Assembly (NCBI GenBank): GCA_024400665.1
Contig: JAKSML010000020.1
Span: forward strand, 1-33,229
DNA length: 33,229 nt
DNA from: Bacteroidales bacterium
Lineage (GTDB): Bacteria; Bacteroidota; Bacteroidia; Bacteroidales; P3
Direction of reading: 5' to 3'
The notes below the pieces were generated by a model. It saw nothing but the letters and a program-made list of their open reading frames with translations. It made no database searches and had not been told where the DNA came from. The position numbers and the translations under genes are program-made. Positions 2,371-12,703 of the stretch are shown piece by piece (within the stretch, counting starts at the first letter, position 1; every line of letters starts with the position of its first letter).

Positions 2371-3975
2371 TTATTCAAAACTCCTATTTAATTCACGTTC
2401 TGATTTAGTCAAAGGAACACTAGCCTCTTTAAAAATGATTTCTGTGTTTTCATAACCAGCCTGTTTGGCTCTGCTTTTTGCCCAATTTCGTAAAGCCGCA
2501 ATTTGGGTTTCCATCGTCATAGATAAGGGAACCGTTTCTTTGATAGCATTCAAAAGATGAATCATCTGTAGTTTAGGGTTCTCTTGATTTTCAGTATACG
2601 CAGCGAACATGGCCTCATTCACACATTCTTCGATTTCTGCGCCATTAAATCCTGATGTATCTTGTGCCAATCTGCCTAACGAAAAATTGCTGGAATTTTG
2701 ACCTTTCTTATTTAAATGAATGGCAAAAATACTTTTTCTATCCTCTTCGTTAGGCAAATCCACAAAGAAGATTTCATCAAAGCGACCTTTCCGTAGTAAT
2801 TCTGGTGGCAGAAGTGAAATGTTATTTGCGGTAGCCACAACAAATACAGGTTTTGATTTTTCTTGCATCCAAGTTAAAAGTGTAGAAAATATTCTCGCCG
2901 TGGTGCCACCATCAGTCGAGCCACTACTTTGTGTACCAGAAAGCCCTTTCTCTATCTCATCAATCCATAACACACAAGGTGCTACTGCTTCTGCTGTGGC
3001 TATGGCTCTACGAATATTATCCTCGCTACTTCCAACAATCCCTTCAAATATTTTACCAATATCCAATCGAAGTAGTGGCATATTCCACAAAGACGCAATA
3101 CATTTAGCGGTTAAGCTTTTCCCACATCCAGGAACACCTAACAATAACACTCCTTTGGGTTCAGGCAGTTTCCATAGTTGTGCCTTAAAATCATAAGCTA
3201 ATTTTCTTTTTTCCAACCACGATTTCAAATGTTCCATACCTCCCACATTACGCAAATCTTCGTTCACTTGATAATAATCAAGAAGTCCACTCTTCTTGAT
3301 TATTTGTTCTTTTTCCAAAGCAACTGTTCTTGGAGAATTGACATCAAATTTATTTTTTACAGCTGCCAAACAATACGCCAAATCCGCCTCCATAACAGTC
3401 ATGCCTAAAGCAGAATCAACTAACCTCTTCTTTAATTCATCATTCAACTCTGCATTTGCATTTCTCGCCACATTCATCAGCACCTTCTCCAAATCACATC
3501 TATCAGGTAATGGGATTTCTACAACTGTTACATACTTTTCCAATTCTGTAGGCAAAGTCATTACCGAGGAAACAATAATGATATGTTTCCTAAAGAATCG
3601 AAGAGTTTCAGCCAATTGGCGAAGTTTTATTTTAATGTTTCGCTCCTCAATATATTCATGGAAATCCTCGAGAACAAAAAACTCCGAAACACTACTTGTC
3701 TCTGAAATCCTTGTAGAAATGTAATTTAGCAGTTCTTCTGGTTCTTCTTGGTTAGCAACAGGCTTCAATGATCCATCTCCTGGCTCTTTCTTTTTTAGAC
3801 CATCGACACAATTCCATTCATAATACAAATAATCCTTCTCAATAGTTTTCGCTATGCTTTGTATTTTCTGTTTTGTCCTTTCATATTCAAAAGTCGTCAA
3901 ATATAATACCGGATAGTATGCTTTCAGCATACTTTGAATTTGATCGTAAATATTAGCGTCTTTCTGAATCACCAT
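2371..3975 (-). CDS. Ycf46-type AAA+ ATPase
   Basis: This 534-residue protein has the two-part architecture of the Ycf46 family. A degenerate N-terminal RecA-like half (about 5-165) starts with the family-typical pattern of a helix and [13 protein letters not shown] and includes [13 protein letters not shown] and [18 protein letters not shown] full AAA+ module follows, with Walker A GVPGCGKS (280-287), Walker B VLWIDE (335-340), a [11 protein letters not shown] segment, sensor-1 ATANN (381-385) and RKGRFDE (395-401) near the arginine finger. Active-site residues look intact. ATG at 3975 lies 4 bases after the stop of the DUF1257 gene, so the two are cotranscribed. Ycf46 homologues often lie beside DUF1257 (Ycf35) genes, so the pair probably works together, perhaps as a remodelling ATPase and its adaptor. 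The biochemical role of the bacterial pair is not established. Base composition is AT-rich like the rest of the operon. Confidence 0.85.
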
Positions 3976-3979
3976 AATC

Positions 3980-4609
3980 TTATTTATTTTGAGTTATTGA
4001 TTGGATTTGTTTCGATTTATTTATTCTATCTCGATACTTCAGCGGAACTTCCTTTTTTGTCATTATTCGTTTTGAACTGAAATTTAAATCCACCTCATCC
4101 ATTGCAGCATGTGCTCGTCTGTTGACATCATCTGGCAGATAATTTGAATCACTAACAACCGTTCCGTCAAAAAGGATAGTGAATTTTATTTGTCCAACCG
4201 GTTCTGATTCTGTCTTGTCATTACTACGTCCTATCATATAAAAAGATACTTTTTCAACATCGTTTGCCACAAATTTATCGTTGCTCTTATAAGAAAATCC
4301 TTTAGCCTTAAACTCACGAATTATCATATTTTTTGAATATTCCACATTGAGCTCATTGTATAATGCCTGCAATTTCTCAACGTATTCCTTGGTGTTGCCC
4401 AAATAATAGGTGTTGTATGTCACCTGGTCACCTTTGACCTTGATGGCGAACTCGCCATAAAATCCTTGTTGGACACCTATATCCGTTATCAGTAGTTCAT
4501 CATCCTTAACAATGAATTTCCAATTGAGTTGCTTGCACGCTTCAAGCAGACAACTTTGATTCATGACAGAATTGTTACGTACAAATTTTGAAGTTTCAAA
4601 TCTTGACAT
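3980..4609 (-). CDS. DUF1257 (Ycf35-like) protein with DUF2997-like tail
   Basis: The protein has 209 residues from the start MSRFETSKF. The first 110 residues follow the DUF1257/Ycf35 pattern: MS-x-F start, a helix LLEACKQLNW, a strand-rich part with GFYGEFAIKVKGD, then YSKNMIIREFKAKGFSYK, which matches the family's closing helix and GF motif. After a linker, residues about 150-190 read GQIKFTILFDGTVVSDS and so on, which resembles DUF2997, a short domain often encoded as a separate small gene beside DUF1257 and Ycf46 genes. I chose ATG at 4609 because it leaves one base after the upstream stop and preserves the MSxF start; an upstream ATG at 4669 would overlap the PLD gene by 59 bases. The molecular function is unknown. 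The DUF1257 call is from pattern memory and is moderately sure; the DUF2997 call is tentative. Confidence 0.65.
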   Translation of the reverse strand: MSRFETSKFVRNNSVMNQSCLLEACKQLNWKFIVKDDELLITDIGVQQGFYGEFAIKVKGDQVTYNTYYLGNTKEYVEKLQALYNELNVEYSKNMIIREFKAKGFSYKSNDKFVANDVEKVSFYMIGRSNDKTESEPVGQIKFTILFDGTVVSDSNYLPDDVNRRAHAAMDEVDLNFSSKRIMTKKEVPLKYRDRINKSKQIQSITQNK

Positions 4610-4610
4610 C

Positions 4611-6686
4611 TTATTTTCTTTTTTTCTTTTTAAACTGTCCCTTTTTCTGTTTATAATTCGATGCTTCAAAAACCTTTATGTTTTTCAGCATTTCTTCCAC
4701 ACTTGAGTATTCTTCCGTTTGACTAATAACAGGGTATTCGTTAGTTAATATATTCAGTCGACTTTGAAAACTCTTCCTCCTTTCAAATGGTATGGTTTTA
4801 TCTTTTACATCTGTCAAATCTGCTTTTATCTTTTCCAATTGTTCCGTATAATAAATCTTTTTGAAATGATTGAGATTGTTTTCTTTAGTTTGTTCAATTT
4901 CAGCAAATTTATCGTCAAACACACCATAGCCCTTATTCAAAAAAACTTTGATTTTTCCGTAGTTTGCTCCTTTGATTTTTTGGAGAAAATCTTTGTCTAT
5001 TGGGGCTTTTGATTGACACAACTCATTCAATGAATCAACGGTATCATTCAAATATTTTTCTCCAAATTTCAAAAAGATTTTTTCATATTCTTCATCATTT
5101 TCGGAATTCCAGTCCAAACGAGACATTTCCTCCTGTCTGTAATTTTGTAATCCTTGCTTTACAAAAAATGAAAGAATATTATAACTACCTGTATAATATA
5201 GGTCTTTGCCTTCTTTTGATCTTAACCATACACGTTTATAGTGAAATGCAGGGAGTTGATGTATGTAGAAATTATGATACTTTTGTTCCAATTCATACAA
5301 TTTTTCCAATGCTTCTGGATCTGCCATAGTATCAGTATTATTCTCTGGCAATGAATAGGCAATGAATATTCGTCCACCTTTTCTTAAGTAATTTTCAAAG
5401 AATGGTATCCTTCTAAAAGTAGCATATTTTTTAATCCAAGGACTTATTATCCATAGTTCATCCGAGGTTTCATCAAACAATCGTTTCAGTTCGACTTCAA
5501 ACTCCAAAGAGTTAAAATGGCGTTTAACCTCCACAATTCCCTTGTGGATAGAAGCGATTTTGTCTACATCGTTGTTCGCTATAGCTGTATCAATCTCTTT
5601 TTGCTTCTCAATAAGTTCTTTCTCAGATAGAATTTGGCTTTCTTTCTTTTGTTCAATTGTGCTTTCTACAGTAAAATCGTCTTCTTCGGATTCACTAAGT
5701 AATTTATCAAACAGTTTGTTTCTTTCTTCCTCTAATGAGTCAAATGATTCGGATAAAGATTCAATAATTGCATCCTGTTTTTCGTCATATACAAGAGACC
5801 GGATAGTATTATCTCTAAAGTTTTCCAATAAAACAACCCATACTTTTGCAATATAACCTTCAGCACCTATCGGCTGACACGATTGAAGAATGAATTTTTT
5901 TGCAGGAAAATGAATTTCTGGAGCTTGAACCTCGGCTAGTGGTTTTACATCCTCAATGTTTTGAGGAAGATTCTCTCGTTGAAAAGTATTTTGTTTCTCA
6001 CTTTTTAGTTTGCTAAAGACTTCTTTTGCACTTTCCCTTAAATTTCCAGTAGCATCAATATATAACTCGAAGTCTCTTTCAAAAGTAGAAAACTTAACTC
6101 CATTATTTGCATATTCTCTTCCCGTATCAGTTAACCAATATACACTTTCATCTCCGTCAATCATTTCATCTTTTATCAAATCGCGTATAGCAGACAAAAG
6201 TATTTCTCTTTCAGCAGGGTCTGTTTCTATATCAAACCCCAATATTTTGCCGATTGATTTTGCCGAGGTCTCACCTTTTAGCAATATAGCACAAATTGCT
6301 TCGTCAAAGAGATTAAAATTAACAGGTTGGGAACAAACCCCGTTGAATTTTGTAATGGTGTAATGCCAATCAAAGTCGGAAAAACCTATGATTCGTTCTA
6401 TTAGTTTTTTCTGTTTGCTTGCTGCATCTACAATCTTTAACTCCAACGGGATTGGAACCTTGTCAGTTTTGTCTGATTTGATTTGCTCTGACTTTACAAC
6501 ACCACCTTCAATATTATCTCCTGATATATAGCTTTTTATGTTAGAGTAAACAAATTCAACTATTTCATCATTAATTGTCTCATCTGGGTCTTCCTCACAC
6601 TGATAACCATTCTTATTTAGAAAATCAGCGATTGCTGTTATACCAATTTTCAGTTCTCTAGATATTTTTGAAAGCCTTTTACTCAT
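4611..6686 (-). CDS. IF-2-N-like domain plus PLD-like nuclease protein
   Basis: The protein has 691 residues from ATG at 6686, 6 bases after the helicase stop; a TTG six bases earlier is unlikely. Residues 1-50 (MSKRLSKISRELKIGITAIA and on) resemble the N-terminal domain of Bacteroidota initiation factor IF-2. Residues about 95-215 look like winged helices (ILLKGETSAKSIGKILG, then SVYWLTDTGREYANNGVKF). An acidic, coiled-coil-prone stretch spans about 300-385. A phospholipase-D-like domain covers about 395-550: LWIISPWIKKY (411-421), RIFIAYSLP, HYK (482-484) and TGSYN (499-503). The usual Asp of HxKxxxxD is Arg489 here, so the active site is partly degenerate or uses another acid. Only one HKD-like unit is visible, so an active enzyme would need to dimerise. 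A lysine-rich C-terminus ends in QFKKKKRK. PLD nucleases beside helicases are typical of anti-phage systems such as DISARM and Mokosh. Confidence 0.75.
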   Translation of the reverse strand: MSKRLSKISRELKIGITAIADFLNKNGYQCEEDPDETINDEIVEFVYSNIKSYISGDNIEGGVVKSEQIKSDKTDKVPIPLELKIVDAASKQKKLIERIIGFSDFDWHYTITKFNGVCSQPVNFNLFDEAICAILLKGETSAKSIGKILGFDIETDPAEREILLSAIRDLIKDEMIDGDESVYWLTDTGREYANNGVKFSTFERDFELYIDATGNLRESAKEVFSKLKSEKQNTFQRENLPQNIEDVKPLAEVQAPEIHFPAKKFILQSCQPIGAEGYIAKVWVVLLENFRDNTIRSLVYDEKQDAIIESLSESFDSLEEERNKLFDKLLSESEEDDFTVESTIEQKKESQILSEKELIEKQKEIDTAIANNDVDKIASIHKGIVEVKRHFNSLEFEVELKRLFDETSDELWIISPWIKKYATFRRIPFFENYLRKGGRIFIAYSLPENNTDTMADPEALEKLYELEQKYHNFYIHQLPAFHYKRVWLRSKEGKDLYYTGSYNILSFFVKQGLQNYRQEEMSRLDWNSENDEEYEKIFLKFGEKYLNDTVDSLNELCQSKAPIDKDFLQKIKGANYGKIKVFLNKGYGVFDDKFAEIEQTKENNLNHFKKIYYTEQLEKIKADLTDVKDKTIPFERRKSFQSRLNILTNEYPVISQTEEYSSVEEMLKNIKVFEASNYKQKKGQFKKKKRK

Positions 6687-6692
6687 AATCAA

Positions 6693-9600
6693 TTACAGAT
6701 TTTTTAGTTGTTTAACATCTACTCTATGCATTTTTGATATGGCTTCTGCATATTCTGGTTTGTTGGCGAAATGCTTTTCGTTACCAACAACAATAAGCAG
6801 CCTCTTTGCACGTGAGAAACCAACATTAACACGTTGTAATTCTCGGGCAAAACCTAATGCAAACGGGTAGTAATTGTTTTTTTGTTCTTTGCCTTTTTCA
6901 TCTATCTGGATATTGCTTCGTACTGTTGATATTATTATGATATTTCTCTCCATACCTTGGAATCTGTCAACAGTATTGATTCTAAACGGAATCTGGAATT
7001 CATTCTCGTATTTGTGTTGCTCAAAATTTCTCCACTCGTCTTTGCGAAAGTCCGGATATAGAGTTTTTCTAATTTTATCCATTTGAGGCATATAATAGGT
7101 TATAACCCCTATTTCTTTATCGTCATCCTTTTGAAAGGAATCCATATACTCTTTAAATCCATTTGCTTTGGTCAAAGCAGATAGAACAGTTTTTATGGCA
7201 TCAATTTCTCCTTGATTTTCGTAAGACGTGCCAACTTTTTTCTCGGCAGTTTCAACATTAACCCAAATAGCATGAAACTTGGGTTCTATAAATGGCAGAA
7301 TGGTAAAACCGTGCCAACGACTTGCCTTGTCAGTGAAGTCTGGAACATCCATATGATTTCTTATTCCGCATAACAAACCGTTTTCCAATTCTTCTTGGTC
7401 TTTATAGAATTGTGAAATACAATTCATGATTTGCTCGTGCATACGGAATTGTGTGTCCAAACTTGCAACAATACTCTTAGGTGCATTGACAAATAATTTT
7501 TCAAACTGTGATGTCTTATAGTCCTGTTTTGTCCAATTTTCTATCAAATCTTTTGCACCGATTGCTTCTAATGCTTCACCAAATTCTTTTTCATCAAGCA
7601 TTGGTGGCAATTGCTTATGGTCTCCTATAATAATTACTTTTTTACCTAAGGTAAGAGGCAAGACGAGTTCGGGTGGGGTTGCTTTACTGGCCTCGTCCAT
7701 TATCACAACGTCAAAAACGGGGTCTCCTTGAATCTCTTGATTCTTTTGAAACATTGACTGGTATGCACTTGCAAAGTTTTTGCTTCCACACTCACTACAA
7801 GTGGCGGCAAAGACATTTACATATTTGAAGTATTCCGAAGAAAAGAGTGGTTTTAGAAATGACTGCTGGCAATCCAACCCCTTCTTCCATTTCTCTATAA
7901 TATCAGAATATGTGTTTTCTTGGCTACATCTACGACTGATATTATTAATCCAGTCATTTATGGCATTATCTTTATTGCTCTTCTCTTCTTGTGAATTTGC
8001 TTTTGCGGCAAGCCATTGTTGCATTCGTTCATTTGAATACATCTTGCCTTCATCCTCAAACTTGTCTATATTCCCAATGCGTATCGGACGAACCATCTTT
8101 TTTCCCCTAAGTCTTTCCAATGCATTGTCAACAGCAAGATTTGTTTGAGATGTCACTAATATTTTAGATTCTGGGTTTCTCAATAATGTTTGCCATATGA
8201 TTTCAGCAATAACGGTTGTTTTTCCAGTACCCGGAGGTCCCTGAATCAGAGCCATATCCGTTGCTATCAAGGACTTTGCGACCGCTTCTAATTGTTTGGG
8301 TTGATTGGCCAATAATGGCTCGTTCAAGTTTAAAAGAATCCGTTTTTTCTCTTCTTCTAAATCCTGAGATGAAATACGGGCAAGCGTTGGGTCGAATAAA
8401 AAATTGGGCAAATTATTATTTGCAGGATACCCAACCCGTCCACTACCAGGACGGGTCACTTTCGCCATTGCTCTAATCATTCGTCCAATATTGGAGAGTT
8501 CTCCGGGAAATATCGGCTTAATATAACCAGCAATTATTCTACGGATATTATCCGATGATTCTATTAAATAATCATCAAAATCTTTTGTTATTTTAAATTG
8601 TAGTTTGTTTTTTCCTTTACTAATCAGTATTCCAATTTGAATTCCATCTCGGAAGTATGCATTATCACCATCTTCCTTGATTTTTTGTTTCAAAGTTTCG
8701 TATTGTTCCTTCGTGAGAAAGACGAACGTTGCACTACTTACACCTTTGGCTGTTTCTTTCTCTTTTTCAATCTCCAACGATTCATTTTTATGAAACTCAT
8801 AAGTTGTACGACCCAACTCATTCTCAAATGATAGTTTCAAATAGTTGTTATATTTGTCACAGACCTCAACGAACTTTTCTTTGAAACAATCACGTTCTTC
8901 TTCTGAATCAAAATTATAACTGAAAGACACTCTAGTGTACTTTTTATAAGGGTCATACTCAACATTCAGATTCTCTTTCCGGATATTGTTTTGTATATCG
9001 GTGATTATGGATTTTCGACCATCCTCCATATCCGTGTTGAGACAAAGATAATACGAAGTTTTGTATGGTTTATCTTCTAATTCAATGTCTGGTACGGCAT
9101 CTTTTATACGCTGAATTTGGCACTGATAATCACTCGCAGAATCAGCTGAAATTACAACTGTGGCTTTACGAATGTTAACAGTCGACTTCCCTAGTAAATC
9201 TGTTTTGGTTTTTACCTCACGTAGAACTTGTATCTGGTTTTCATTCTCTTGAGGATATCCAAAAATATACCTTGTTGGCAGTTGACGTATTGTCAAGTCC
9301 TCATTTTTATTCTGTAGTTCAACCAGGCTATCTTTGAAATTATCAATCTTGTTGCTTGTTTGATATTCTCCGTCAATAATCTCAAAGCCAGCAATCTCAA
9401 CAAAAGAATTTCTATTATTATTATTGCCAAAACGATAAATCCTTTTATTTAATTGAAGACCACAATCTGAAAACAAATCGTATTTCACAGGAGCTGACAC
9501 ATCTATTACTAATTGTGACCGCTCATTAGATTTATACGCCCTTGCTTTTCCTAACCCACTACTATCCAGCCGCTTCTTGACAAATTCATCGGCTGGCAGA

Positions 9601-10724
9601 GTGTTTTTTGGGGTTTTAACCTTAATTTTCAACTCTATTTCATTCCTTTGCTCAACAAAGGCTATACTTGAAAAATTGTCTTCAATACATTTTTTTACGT
9701 GGGGATAGTCAATTTCTGAAATGATTATCTCGCCTTGTGGGGTTATTTGCAAGTCGTCATATCCATATTCCTCTGATAATTTTTGCTGAATATTACTGTA
9801 TATTTCTTCCTTTGAATCATCATCGGTGTATTTGAACGACAATTCACCTGAAATGGTATTGCTTGGCAACTCCTGAGAAAGTTCAAAGAAGTATTCTGAT
9901 GCTATTGCATTTAACTGTGATATTTCATCCTGGCTCAATATTCGATATGTGTCGAATTCGATAAACGCAGTATTTTTATTTACTGCATAATCATTCAATT
10001 CACTTGGAGAAAACAGCTCTTCTATTTCTTCTTCAAATTTTTTATTCAAATCATCTTCACTAATAGTGATATCAACATATGTTGCTCGTTCCCCTCTAAT
10101 GTTATCAGTATATGCCTGACTTACTTTTTGTATTTTCCATACATTTTCTTTTTGTTTGACCAGTTTTTTGAGAGCGTTTACGTAGTTATCCCATATTTGT
10201 TTGTCTTTTCCCTTGTTTATGTCAACGGTTGGTATGTTAAGGGCATCTACTTTTTGATAAAAATCCGTAAACTGCTTACCAGCACCTTTCTTTTCTTTTG
10301 AATAAAATGAGAAAAAACAGTCACATTGTTCAACATCTTTGTTGGGAGCTATTATAAAAACGACCTCCTTTGCCTTTTGTACAAAGTATGAGTATGCTTT
10401 ATCAAACTGACTTATTGGTTCATCATTTATTTTACATTGAAGTTCAATGGCTTTTTCTTTTTCAATGGGAATAAGAATCTTATGAACTGAATTATTATGA
10501 GTAATACCATATTGGTCAACACGTTCATAAGTTTTGATTTTCTGGAAATAACATCTCCGAGTTTGAGCTAGCAAATGTTTTACTTGTCCGAAACGCAAAG
10601 TGTTATTTTCATTTCGCTCCCAAGTTCCTTCAAAATCATCTTTGAACTTTAATACAATCTCGATAGGAGAATTATCATTCTCCCCAAAATCAATAGGCGT
10701 ATATGTTCTATTAAAGTCTTCCAT
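6693..10724 (-). CDS. UPF1-like SF1 helicase (COG1112 type)
   Basis: This 1343-residue protein carries an SF1B helicase core in its C-terminal 40%. Visible motifs are Q-motif and motif I region TDMALIQGPPGTGKT (Walker A 829-836), motif Ia TSQTNLAVDNALERL, motif II DEAS (1010-1013), motif III GDHKQLPP, motif IV region QFRMHEQIM, motif V TVDRFQGMERNIIIISTVRS and motif VI NVGFSRAKRLLIVVGN. This set fits the UPF1/SMUBP2/Sen1 group, which unwinds RNA or DNA 5' to 3'. The first 780 residues are strand- and charge-rich, show no domain I recognise, and may be a sensor or partner-binding region. It starts 31 bases after the small XRE gene and ends 6 bases before the PLD gene, so it is in the same operon. 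COG1112-type helicases are the large subunits of Mokosh and related defence systems; no kinase domain is visible here. Confidence 0.88.
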   Translation of the reverse strand: MEDFNRTYTPIDFGENDNSPIEIVLKFKDDFEGTWERNENNTLRFGQVKHLLAQTRRCYFQKIKTYERVDQYGITHNNSVHKILIPIEKEKAIELQCKINDEPISQFDKAYSYFVQKAKEVVFIIAPNKDVEQCDCFFSFYSKEKKGAGKQFTDFYQKVDALNIPTVDINKGKDKQIWDNYVNALKKLVKQKENVWKIQKVSQAYTDNIRGERATYVDITISEDDLNKKFEEEIEELFSPSELNDYAVNKNTAFIEFDTYRILSQDEISQLNAIASEYFFELSQELPSNTISGELSFKYTDDDSKEEIYSNIQQKLSEEYGYDDLQITPQGEIIISEIDYPHVKKCIEDNFSSIAFVEQRNEIELKIKVKTPKNTLPADEFVKKRLDSSGLGKARAYKSNERSQLVIDVSAPVKYDLFSDCGLQLNKRIYRFGNNNNRNSFVEIAGFEIIDGEYQTSNKIDNFKDSLVELQNKNEDLTIRQLPTRYIFGYPQENENQIQVLREVKTKTDLLGKSTVNIRKATVVISADSASDYQCQIQRIKDAVPDIELEDKPYKTSYYLCLNTDMEDGRKSIITDIQNNIRKENLNVEYDPYKKYTRVSFSYNFDSEEERDCFKEKFVEVCDKYNNYLKLSFENELGRTTYEFHKNESLEIEKEKETAKGVSSATFVFLTKEQYETLKQKIKEDGDNAYFRDGIQIGILISKGKNKLQFKITKDFDDYLIESSDNIRRIIAGYIKPIFPGELSNIGRMIRAMAKVTRPGSGRVGYPANNNLPNFLFDPTLARISSQDLEEEKKRILLNLNEPLLANQPKQLEAVAKSLIATDMALIQGPPGTGKTTVIAEIIWQTLLRNPESKILVTSQTNLAVDNALERLRGKKMVRPIRIGNIDKFEDEGKMYSNERMQQWLAAKANSQEEKSNKDNAINDWINNISRRCSQENTYSDIIEKWKKGLDCQQSFLKPLFSSEYFKYVNVFAATCSECGSKNFASAYQSMFQKNQEIQGDPVFDVVIMDEASKATPPELVLPLTLGKKVIIIGDHKQLPPMLDEKEFGEALEAIGAKDLIENWTKQDYKTSQFEKLFVNAPKSIVASLDTQFRMHEQIMNCISQFYKDQEELENGLLCGIRNHMDVPDFTDKASRWHGFTILPFIEPKFHAIWVNVETAEKKVGTSYENQGEIDAIKTVLSALTKANGFKEYMDSFQKDDDKEIGVITYYMPQMDKIRKTLYPDFRKDEWRNFEQHKYENEFQIPFRINTVDRFQGMERNIIIISTVRSNIQIDEKGKEQKNNYYPFALGFARELQRVNVGFSRAKRLLIVVGNEKHFANKPEYAEAISKMHRVDVKQLKNL

Positions 10725-10755
10725 TGAGTTATTTTTCTTTATTGCATACTAATAA

Positions 10756-10935
10756 TTATCTAATATCGACATCCAATAACTTCGATATGCTTTCAAGTGT
10801 TTGCAAATCAGGTTGTATGCCATTCTGACACCACTTACTGACTGTGCAAGTGGATTTCCCTAATTGTCCGGCCAACCATTTGCCAGTTCGACCTCGCTCA
10901 ACAAGAACCACTTTTATTCTATTAATGTTGGGCAT
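10756..10935 (-). CDS. Small XRE-family HTH repressor-like protein
   Basis: A 59-residue frame translates as MPNINRIKVVLVERGRTGKW, then LAGQLGKSTCTVSKWCQNGI, then QPDLQTLESISKLLDVDIR. It is a single helix-turn-helix of the XRE/Cro type: the turn lies at GKSTCTVSKWCQNG and is followed by the usual 'QP-x-L-x-x-L-x-x-I-x-x-x-L-x-V-D' helix. Proteins of this size and pattern often head restriction-modification and other defence operons in Bacteroidales. The start ATG at 10935 was chosen because NRIKVVL is the normal N-terminus of the family. It stops just where relatives usually continue with a short RELL-like tail, so the end is slightly short. It sits 31 bases before the helicase and 40 bases after a perfect inverted repeat, so it probably autoregulates the operon. 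Confidence 0.85.
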   Translation of the reverse strand: MPNINRIKVVLVERGRTGKWLAGQLGKSTCTVSKWCQNGIQPDLQTLESISKLLDVDIR

Positions 10936-11506: not shown

Positions 11507-12703
11507 TCAGATTCTTCCAGGATAGACCTTCAGAGCCTCTTCGAGGCACTTGACGGCGGCTTTGAGGTCCTCGACACAGAGGCAGTAGGTGATACGTGCC
11601 TGATGGCGGCCGCTCTCGGGGTTGACATAGAAGCCCGTGGCAGGTGCCAGCATGACGGTGGCGCCATTGTAGCTGAAGTCGGTGAGGAGCCATTTGCAGA
11701 ATTTGTCGCTGTCGTCAACGGGCAGATCTACAACGGTGTAGAAAGCGCCCTTGGGTTTGGGGCAGAAGCAGCCGGGGATGGCGTTGATGCCTTCGACGAT
11801 GACGTTGCGGCGTTTGAGGTATTCGGCACTTACGGCGTCGAAATAGTCCTGCGGGGTATCGACGGCGGCTTCGCCGAAGATCTGGCCGAAGGAGGGAGGA
11901 GAGAGACGTGCCTGAGCGAGGCGCATGGCGATGGAATAGACCTCGGCGTTGCGGGTGACGAGGCAGCCCACGCGGGCGCCGCAGGCGCTGTAGCGTTTGG
12001 AGACGGAGTCGAAGAGGATGACGTTGTTCTCCAGGCCTTCGAGCTGCATGACGCTGAAGTGTTCGAGGCCGTCGTAGCAGAACTCGCGATAGACCTCGTC
12101 GGCAAAGAGGTAGAGGTCGTGCTTCTTGACGATGTCAGCAACCTTGAGGAGCTCTTCTTTGGAGTAGAGGTAGCCCGTGGGGTTGTTGGGGTTGCAGATC
12201 ATGATGGCCTTGGTGTGGGGAGTGATGGCCTTCTCGAACTCCTCGATGGGAGGCAGTGCGAAGCCGCCCTTGATGTCGCTGGGGATGGTCTTGATCTTAG
12301 CGCCGCAGAGTTTGGCGAAGGTGTTGTAGTTGGTGTAGTAAGGTTCGGGGATGATGATTTCGTCGTCGGGGTTGAGACAGACGGTGAAGGCGAACTGCAG
12401 GGCCTCGCTGCCGCCGTTGGTGACGATGATCTGGTCGGGGGTCACCTCGATGCCATGACGATGGTAGTACTCGCAGAGTTTCTTGCGATAGGACATATTG
12501 CCGGCGCTGTGGCTGTAGGCGAGGACGCCGATCTTGGTCTCAGCGAGGACTTTGAGAGCGCCCTTGGGGGTCTCGATATCGGGCTGGCCGATGTTGAGGT
12601 GATAGACATGGATGCCACGTTCTTTTGCTGCATCAGCGAAGGGGACGAGTTTGCGGATTGCAGACTGAGGGAGTTCGTTTCCTTTAGTAGAAATCTGGGG
12701 CAT
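11507..12703 (-). CDS. PLP-dependent aminotransferase, class I (aspartate-type)
   Basis: This 398-residue protein is a fold-type I aminotransferase. Diagnostic motifs are LNIGQPDIETP near the N-terminus, NPNNPTG (171-177), ADEVYREF with the pyridine-binding Asp202, and SVSKRYSACGARVG with the PLP lysine at 236. The late HQARITYCL segment should hold the carboxylate-binding Arg. It would transfer amino groups between an amino acid, probably aspartate or an aromatic residue, and 2-oxoglutarate in the cytoplasm; the exact substrate cannot be read from sequence. I chose ATG at 12703 (MPQIS), the usual start of Bacteroidales homologues; an in-frame start three codons upstream is less likely. It stands alone, with a terminator on its downstream side and another between it and the DUF1573 gene, so it is probably monocistronic. 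GC-rich codon use matches the core genome. Confidence 0.88.
   Translation of the reverse strand: MPQISTKGNELPQSAIRKLVPFADAAKERGIHVYHLNIGQPDIETPKGALKVLAETKIGVLAYSHSAGNMSYRKKLCEYYHRHGIEVTPDQIIVTNGGSEALQFAFTVCLNPDDEIIIPEPYYTNYNTFAKLCGAKIKTIPSDIKGGFALPPIEEFEKAITPHTKAIMICNPNNPTGYLYSKEELLKVADIVKKHDLYLFADEVYREFCYDGLEHFSVMQLEGLENNVILFDSVSKRYSACGARVGCLVTRNAEVYSIAMRLAQARLSPPSFGQIFGEAAVDTPQDYFDAVSAEYLKRRNVIVEGINAIPGCFCPKPKGAFYTVVDLPVDDSDKFCKWLLTDFSYNGATVMLAPATGFYVNPESGRHQARITYCLCVEDLKAAVKCLEEALKVYPGRI

Follow-up and report, generated by a model that had tools for sequence, protein, structure and literature searches.

A 33,229-nucleotide (nt) contig of a Bacteroidales bacterium (JAKSML010000020.1 of assembly GCA_024400665.1; the whole of this stretch is called the window) carries on its minus strand, at 2371..10935, an operon that joins a Mokosh-type helicase gene (A) and nuclease gene (B) to a small partner gene (C) and a gene for an AAA+ ATPase of probable Ycf46 type (D). 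With a probability of about 0.6, this is a horizontally moving anti-phage (or anti-plasmid) operon with a Mokosh-type core, in which a helicase and a nuclease would cut RNA under the control of the ATPase. The block recurs in conserved order in gut and marine Bacteroidota and its surroundings are rich in defence genes. A sequence-only reading of the window had proposed it as a candidate undescribed defence system.

Organisation of the operon

The operon consists of five intact open reading frames (ORFs), all on the minus strand. In order of reading they encode a small XRE/Cro-type helix-turn-helix protein of 59 amino acids (aa; 10756..10935), the helicase A (6693..10724; 1343 aa), the nuclease protein B (4611..6692; 693 aa), the small partner C (3980..4609; 209 aa) and the ATPase D (2371..3975; 534 aa). 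The spacings of 31, 6, 1 and 4 nt given in the sequence-only reading are borne out by the ORF coordinates; the second is 6 nt with an ATG start of gene B and 0 with an upstream TTG. For gene C, an ATG start gives 3980-4609, while a TTG start would lengthen the ORF to 4669. The GC content of the operon is 35.0%, compared with 55.3% for positions 11507-33229 of the window; this is expected of acquired DNA.

Recurrence and distribution

Recurrence of the gene order was examined from several starting points. A search with gene B in 295 genomes of the same order matched 119; these comprise the window's own genome, five true relatives and 113 genomes that match by the IF2N domain only. Four of the five relatives have A-B-C-D in the same order, while one (locus L034 in genome G078) has A-B alone. 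A scan of 84,980 species genomes with the gene C alignment found 28 relatives. In 27 of these B stands before and D after gene C, and in 25 A stands before B; in the two loci without A, the contigs end in or just upstream of B. The sole exception, L065, is a lone gene C homologue amid unrelated genes. These patterns were obtained from C alone and are unbiased by neighbours, though the scan favours near relatives. A hidden Markov model of gene C matched three of 395 genomes of the phylum, all at E<1e-90: the window's own and two others (L071 and L072), each with the operon in full.

In total there are 30 operon loci, of which 26 are complete; the gene order is the same in the 29 beyond the window as far as the contigs reach. 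Same-contig duplicates were dropped (L053, L055, L058 and L059 equal L035, L038, L036 and L037), and L034, which has no C-D, and the lone gene C of L065 stand outside this count. Chance adjacency of the parts in one genome is ruled out by this recurrence; the sequence-only reading had named adjacency in this genome alone as grounds for refutation.

The hosts are gut Bacteroidales (Bacteroides, Phocaeicola, Prevotella and others), Flavobacteriaceae (Flavobacterium, Lutibacter, Lacinutrix, Cellulophaga and Polaribacter) and one contig filed under Bacillota. Named cultured strains with the operon include Bacteroides finegoldii, Phocaeicola faecium, Cellulophaga fucicola and Lutibacter citreus. 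The Bacillota record (L052) is a 3.7-kb contig filed as Lachnoclostridium in a metagenome-assembled genome; it is 99.4% identical to the operon of Bacteroides L048, which suggests either misbinning or very recent transfer. Seen from the helicase side, and with scoring limited to two candidates in each genome, eight of the 295 genomes of the order have A-like helicases at E<=1e-50. C-D accompany the helicase in five of these, among them the window's own genome; one has A-B alone, and in the last two the gene setting is different.

The four genes are inherited together. Over the 26 full operons, the four proteins agree in their pairwise distances, with correlations of 0.80-0.87 that are uncorrected for common descent. 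Mean identity is 61% for D, 52% for C, 39% for A and 30% for B. In three locus pairs all four genes have a ratio of nonsynonymous to synonymous change (dN/dS) of 0.03-0.23, with 0.05-0.11 for gene D, and are under purifying selection. For the window and L041 the ratio is obtainable for C alone (0.09), the other genes being saturated at synonymous sites. The pair L045/L047 has a synonymous distance of 0.70 in gene A compared with 0.015-0.03 in C and D; this contrast suggests recombination inside the operon.

Helicase

Gene A encodes a superfamily 1 (SF1) helicase of the UPF1/IGHMBP2 type. It matches the Pfam families AAA_11 (E 1.1e-39) and AAA_12 (E 8.7e-39), and its best defence model in PADLOC is MkoA (E 3.5e-109, residues 594-1331), which is matched by all 24 gene A homologues. 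Motif I, GPPGTGKT (8217..8240), and motif II, DEAS (7686..7697), are invariant across the 24-row alignment, in agreement with the earlier claim of intact SF1 motifs. The nearest solved structures are SMUBP-2, UPF1/NAM7 and SEN1; the best stretches lie in the helicase core, from profile position 787. Pfam returns 24 matches for gene A at E<=1; none has its best stretch in the N-terminal half, and no protein-kinase family is among them. The NCBIfam name that matches gene A is PLuB, which is not explained in the literature searched.

A conserved protein of about 150 aa is encoded just upstream of the helicase in 11 operon loci (L049 at 3123-3581, L035, L043-L048, L050, L051 and L067) and is absent from the window. 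Two members were scanned and had no Pfam match. MkoA-like helicases are also found in other company, at L107:8607-18244 and L134:7783-16081. One of the two follows an XRE gene and precedes a 1494-aa protein and a protein that looks macro-domain-like by eye; the other is followed by a large protein annotated as a DarT ADP-ribosyltransferase.

Nuclease

The gene B protein consists, in the window, of an IF2 N-terminal-like domain (IF2N), a scaffold and a PLD nuclease domain. PADLOC assigns residues 161-482 to MkoB (E 2.6e-13). The PLD active-site motif HYK...GSYN lies at 5178..5243, with HxK at residue 484 and GSxN at residue 502. All 14 PLD-type rows keep the H, K, G, S and N unchanged, and the HxK...GSxN domain noted from the sequence is thus confirmed.

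The nuclease domain varies between loci. Among 30 B ORFs examined (L034 included), the PLD motif is present in 18 and PIN motifs in 11, with no ORF carrying the two together; the remaining ORF is a fragment. Over the 30 operon loci, with L071 and L072 added and L034 excluded, the numbers are 18 PLD and 12 PIN. All 11 PIN-type proteins scanned match Pfam PIN_4 (best E 1.8e-24), and their acidic residues D608, E637, D687 and D708 are invariant. The PIN-type protein of L038 also has an OST-HTH/LOTUS domain (E 3.8e-7). PIN types have lost the PLD motif, while the region ahead of the nuclease stays alignable (hhalign E 5.1e-49 over 538 columns); MkoB is matched by only one of 11 PIN-type proteins, at E 0.0055. 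The PLD nuclease proposed as an operon component therefore holds for the window's branch but is replaced by PIN in the sister branch.

A tree of gene D with 28 operon rows and six plasmid relatives places the operon in one group (support 99/98). Within it, the PLD loci (17 rows, 95/92) and the PIN loci (11 rows, 100/100) form separate groups, so one exchange suffices for the data. The tree holds 28 of the 30 operon loci, as D is truncated in L040 and L056, and its root is unsure because of long outgroup branches. Gene B is, as judged from these alignments, a scaffold that accepts an interchangeable nuclease, PLD or PIN.

IF2N (approximately 6513..6686) is a true domain of the IF2 type; it matches the N-termini of IF2-sized proteins across many genomes (phmmer E 1e-10 to 8e-10). 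To this extent the sequence-only reading was correct, but the domain is confined to seven of 31 B proteins (one of the 31, from L052, is without its N-terminus) and is not part of the conserved core. In L040:7913-9998, a near relative of the window operon, gene B is split into two frames. A search of solved structures with gene B gave two weak rows only, both fusion constructs. A search for the MkoB family in 390 genomes gave mostly partial-model matches, and controls matched in eight of 14 genomes; only the matches in G000 and G512 were kept.

AAA+ ATPase

Ycf46 and Ycf35 (DUF1257) are conserved proteins of plastids and cyanobacteria. Gene D encodes an AAA+ ATPase (Pfam AAA, E 1.1e-30), probably of the Ycf46 type, and its AAA part resembles p97/VAT in a structure search. 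In 23 aligned rows, the residues of Walker A, GVPGCGKS (3115..3138), are invariant except V281, which is nearly so, and C284; Walker B (DE) and RKGRFDE are invariant throughout. The ATPase is thus intact, as had been claimed. In PADLOC-2023 it matches models of other AAA+ proteins only.

Relatives of gene D are widespread outside the operon. The protein is homologous along nearly its full length to plasmid AAA ATPases; it is 42% identical over 502 aligned columns to one whose gene lies near those for DUF1257 and DUF2997 on a Geminocystis plasmid, in a comparison set that holds no record named Ycf46. Eleven contexts of such relatives (plasmids and one phage), chosen from the matches listed, were read: an annotated DUF2997 gene is present in nine, DUF1257 also in six and a 4Fe-4S gene in five. 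Neither DUF is present in the Treponema and mycobacteriophage contexts, though a DUF1257 match lies elsewhere on the Treponema plasmid. On a Pseudanabaena plasmid, GrpE, Hsp70, DUF1257, DUF2997 and the AAA gene stand together.

Within the phylum, a D-like protein at E<=1e-70 is found in 25 of the 395 genomes, with scores of at least 900 bits in the three operon genomes and no higher than 488 in the remaining 22. Chromosomal contexts were read for five of those 22: DUF2997 adjoins in one and an Hsp70-like gene is near in two (Pfam-checked in one). These DUF and Hsp70-type neighbours suit a protein-remodelling module that is used in several settings.

Some further occurrences were recorded. Ycf46-like AAA ATPases are found on large plasmids of several phyla, IncC included (L128-L131 and L141-L145), with DUF2997 in nine of nine and DUF1257 in six of nine. 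In mycobacteriophages (L140) a gene D relative occurs without annotated DUF partners. In two loci (L157 and L158, family f136), a Ycf46-like AAA gene lies near an Hsp70-like gene and a gene that looks SUMF-like by eye.

Small partner

Gene C belongs to a family of 26 members. It has no significant Pfam domain match of its own, and DUF1257 (PF06868) has no match in the window genome at E<=0.001 or above the Pfam curated cut-off. Across the family, the Pfam DUF1257 model matches six of 26 members at E<=1 (best E 0.015); chance-looking families such as GOLD_PATL1_C match eight, at up to 3e-4. The DUF1257-like partner proposed earlier is therefore barely visible in a plain sequence search, but it emerges when profiles are compared. 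A DUF1257 profile aligns with the first half of gene C (approximately 4274..4570) at an hhalign score of 34.5 and a probability of 60%, and none of 200 column-permuted controls scores as high (best 23.7). A DUF2997 (PF11211) profile aligns with the last quarter (tentatively, and approximately, 4031..4198) at a score of 23.1 and a probability of 12%; again none of 200 controls is as high, with the best at 22.2. An unrelated profile gave E 0.76. Four of nine candidate proteins in the DUF1257 position, which have no DUF1257 annotation and no phmmer match, were left out of this comparison, as was the DUF1257 gene of L129, whose family match spans two frames.

The length of gene C is about that of DUF1257 and DUF2997 combined, and position and order fit. 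Against this, the hhalign probabilities are modest, the Pfam DUF1257 model is weak, and a cysteine that is invariant in four DUF2997 rows is not conserved in gene C. Gene C is probably a relative of DUF1257 and possibly carries a DUF2997 part. Its make-up suggests that DUF1257 and, with less certainty, DUF2997 have been joined in one gene; near the related plasmid AAA+ genes they are separate. A search of solved structures with gene C returned nothing.

Defence neighbourhood and mobility

The surroundings of the operon are rich in defence genes. In a set of 105 flank proteins from 25 loci (those at a distance under 3.5 kb, out of 153 non-redundant proteins), 133 PADLOC families were matched at E<=1e-20, compared with five for 105 control proteins, likewise drawn from 153. 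The 25 flank families listed include type IIG restriction enzymes, PbeA, Ssp/Dnd proteins, Argonaute and Dsr2; the control families include Cas9, a type II endonuclease and a DRT protein. This is in the direction of the defence-island enrichment for which the sequence-only reading proposed a test.

Operons with nucleotide identity of 93-99.7% occur in different genera. In four pairs the main match ends near the operon: L061/L062 (99.7% over 8,728 nt), L061/L071 (95.4% over 8,385 nt), L044/L067 (94.6% over 9,043 nt) and L045/L047 (93.7% over 9,609 nt, including the upstream gene for the protein of about 150 aa). In L045/L046 and L048/L051 the match extends into the flanks. Near-identical operons in different genera, several of them with unrelated flanks, indicate that the block moves.

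Residence on plasmids or phages was considered and set aside. Single-protein queries with gene B found no match in plasmids, phages or viral contigs; gene C of L045 was unmatched in plasmids, and gene A matched 296 plasmid records, none over 80% of its length. In the flavobacterial locus L071, the operon lies between direct repeats (3650-4000 and 12319-12669) of 244 and 93 nt that are 94% and 91% alike. Other repeats of 91-164 nt recur in the same stretch in the manner of a cassette array; L061 and L062 belong to the same observation.

Two neighbours of the window operon can be described here. The small XRE protein has the identity assigned to it earlier (Pfam HTH_3, E 2.2e-5), but it lies outside the conserved core: among the loci examined, its gene stands directly ahead of the operon in the window and L044 only, and further homologues are more distant from the operon or adjoin another helicase. 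It is probably a local repressor. Immediately after the operon, at 718-2250, is a 510-aa gene with Schlafen AlbA_2 and HATPase_c_4 domains; the AlbA_2 domain occurs in five of the 105 flank proteins, this neighbour among them.

Comparison with known systems

Mokosh, as defined in passages of PMC11672841, PMC10952713 and PMC11291487, is the nearest described system. In type I (MkoA and MkoB), as in the operon, a COG1112-type SF1 helicase gene precedes a separate gene for a PLD nuclease. The passage of PMC11672841 on type I describes a serine-threonine kinase domain, whereas no kinase family is among the Pfam matches of gene A. Type I has two genes, whereas here C and D follow A-B in 27 of 28 gene-C loci and in L071 and L072; the operon also has PIN for PLD in a whole branch, and IF2N on B in the window's branch. 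It is not filed as Mokosh type I because the kinase domain is not found, there are four genes and PLD is not universal. In type II the same helicase and PLD families are fused in one protein, MkoC (as described in a passage of PMC11672841), unlike the separate genes here.

The second likeness is to the Ycf46/Ycf35/DUF2997 module of cyanobacteria, plastids and plasmids, with which the operon shares an AAA+ protein homologous over nearly its full length and a small partner that is probably akin to DUF1257 and possibly to DUF2997. Synechocystis has a cluster of DUF2997, ycf35 and a ferredoxin gene, according to a passage of PMC4284462. The operon differs in its apparently fused partner gene, in its tie to a helicase and nuclease, and in having no ferredoxin or 4Fe-4S gene.

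Several other systems fit less well. DISARM combines the PLD protein DrmC with a helicase, and has a DrmA/B/C set with a methyltransferase. It was rejected: the DrmC match of gene B is just E 8.5e-4, and no other Drm model is among the matches of the operon proteins. The IetA system was also rejected: gene D matches it just in the portion common to AAA+ proteins (best residues 271-502, E 2.1e-26), and the Pfam matches of the operon proteins include no protease family. The proteins of Hachiman (HamAB) belong to other families than those of the operon and are not known to include an AAA+ module. Hachiman is alike in outline as a helicase-nuclease defence, in which the helicase restrains and then releases the nuclease (from a passage of PMC12278908).

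The operon is undescribed in the literature searched, which lay mostly outside subscription papers and preprints. No paper was found there that joins Mokosh with a helicase, a PIN domain and phage, or that joins four of UPF1, conflict systems, PLD, LOTUS and PIN domain. The same search turned up no described biochemical role of Ycf46 or Ycf35, and among the matches listed there was no defence link for ycf46, DUF1257 or DUF2997. The claim of an undescribed architecture stands in part: C and D belong to a recurrent operon near defence genes, and no PADLOC-2023 model matches gene C, but A and B are of the MkoA and MkoB type. The operon is probably an undescribed variant related to Mokosh, not an unrelated system.

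Proposed function

Recurrence and genomic setting make a defence function very likely. In the favoured mechanism, the helicase A would load on foreign nucleic acid, most likely RNA, move along it and act as the sensor; B would carry the swappable nuclease on its scaffold and cut once A engages the target. Gene C would serve as the adaptor of the gene D ring, which would remodel the A-B complex and so set when the nuclease is armed or released. Such a role for the ATPase, as a remodeller or gate of A-B, has about even odds. PIN, LOTUS and IF2N families point to RNA or the translation machinery, and their presence on gene B favours RNA as the substrate, which is somewhat the better bet. Mokosh itself degrades viral transcripts, as stated in a passage of PMC11291487. 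C and D are the most conserved proteins and A and B less so; this suggests that C and D probably act on a constant internal partner while B is selected for change.

A number of points weigh against the favoured reading. L034 carries the A-B pair without C and D. Gene D relatives outside the operon were read in 16 contexts (11 plasmid or phage and five chromosomal), and an A or B homologue occurs in none of them; the AAA+ module is therefore confined neither to this system nor to defence. DNA and RNA are both possible substrates of PLD proteins, and both are acted on by helicases of the gene A type. The flank counts (133 and five) refer to family models, many of them overlapping, and not to proteins; the ratio is overstated, though its direction is clear. 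The controls were taken from six genomes with long contigs, in 18 regions of 20 kb chosen arbitrarily.

The operon could also be a plain Mokosh type I system with two accessory genes, in which A and B defend while C and D aid folding, expression or self-protection. The MkoA and MkoB matches and the related A-B pair of G078 agree with this. However, C and D occur throughout the operon loci, within the limits of the contigs, they are better conserved than A and B, with low dN/dS for gene D in three pairs, and no kinase family is among the Pfam matches of gene A; the explanation is unlikely. If C and D were instead a sensor of a phage protein or stalled complex that switches on A-B, with the helicase as effector motor only, they would be expected to vary as phage-facing parts do, yet they are the most conserved and B varies most. 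It is true that gene D relatives are mobile by themselves in plasmids and phages, and that AAA+ remodellers gate other defence systems, as TRIP13 does with HORMA in CBASS; even so, this arrangement is improbable. Least probable is a toxin-antitoxin-like or stabilisation operon of mobile DNA. A sporadic XRE gene, a nuclease and the direct repeats around one flavobacterial operon would suit it, but the large ATP-consuming proteins, the lack of a small antitoxin-like partner common to the loci and the defence-rich flanks do not.

The anti-phage operon with AAA+ control can be extended to a bolder proposal, put forward tentatively. The operon may be a distinct defence system whose helicase-scaffold complex can take either PLD or PIN and is activated through a gate formed by a Ycf46-type AAA+ ring and its DUF1257-DUF2997 adaptor. 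On this view, the Ycf46-Ycf35 pair of plastids and cyanobacteria might be a version, domesticated or shared, of a general remodelling module that belongs to mobile elements.

Significance

Many gut and marine Bacteroidota keep this block of genes together. It couples a nucleic-acid motor and an exchangeable nuclease to a chaperone-like ATPase similar to one that is known chiefly from plastids. As the Ycf46-like AAA+ protein is tied here to a helicase and an effector nuclease, and occurs in named cultured strains, the function of this module becomes testable by phage assay. That a single scaffold takes PLD or PIN suggests a core that serves as a general platform, and it points to an RNA target; this bears on the mechanism of Mokosh.

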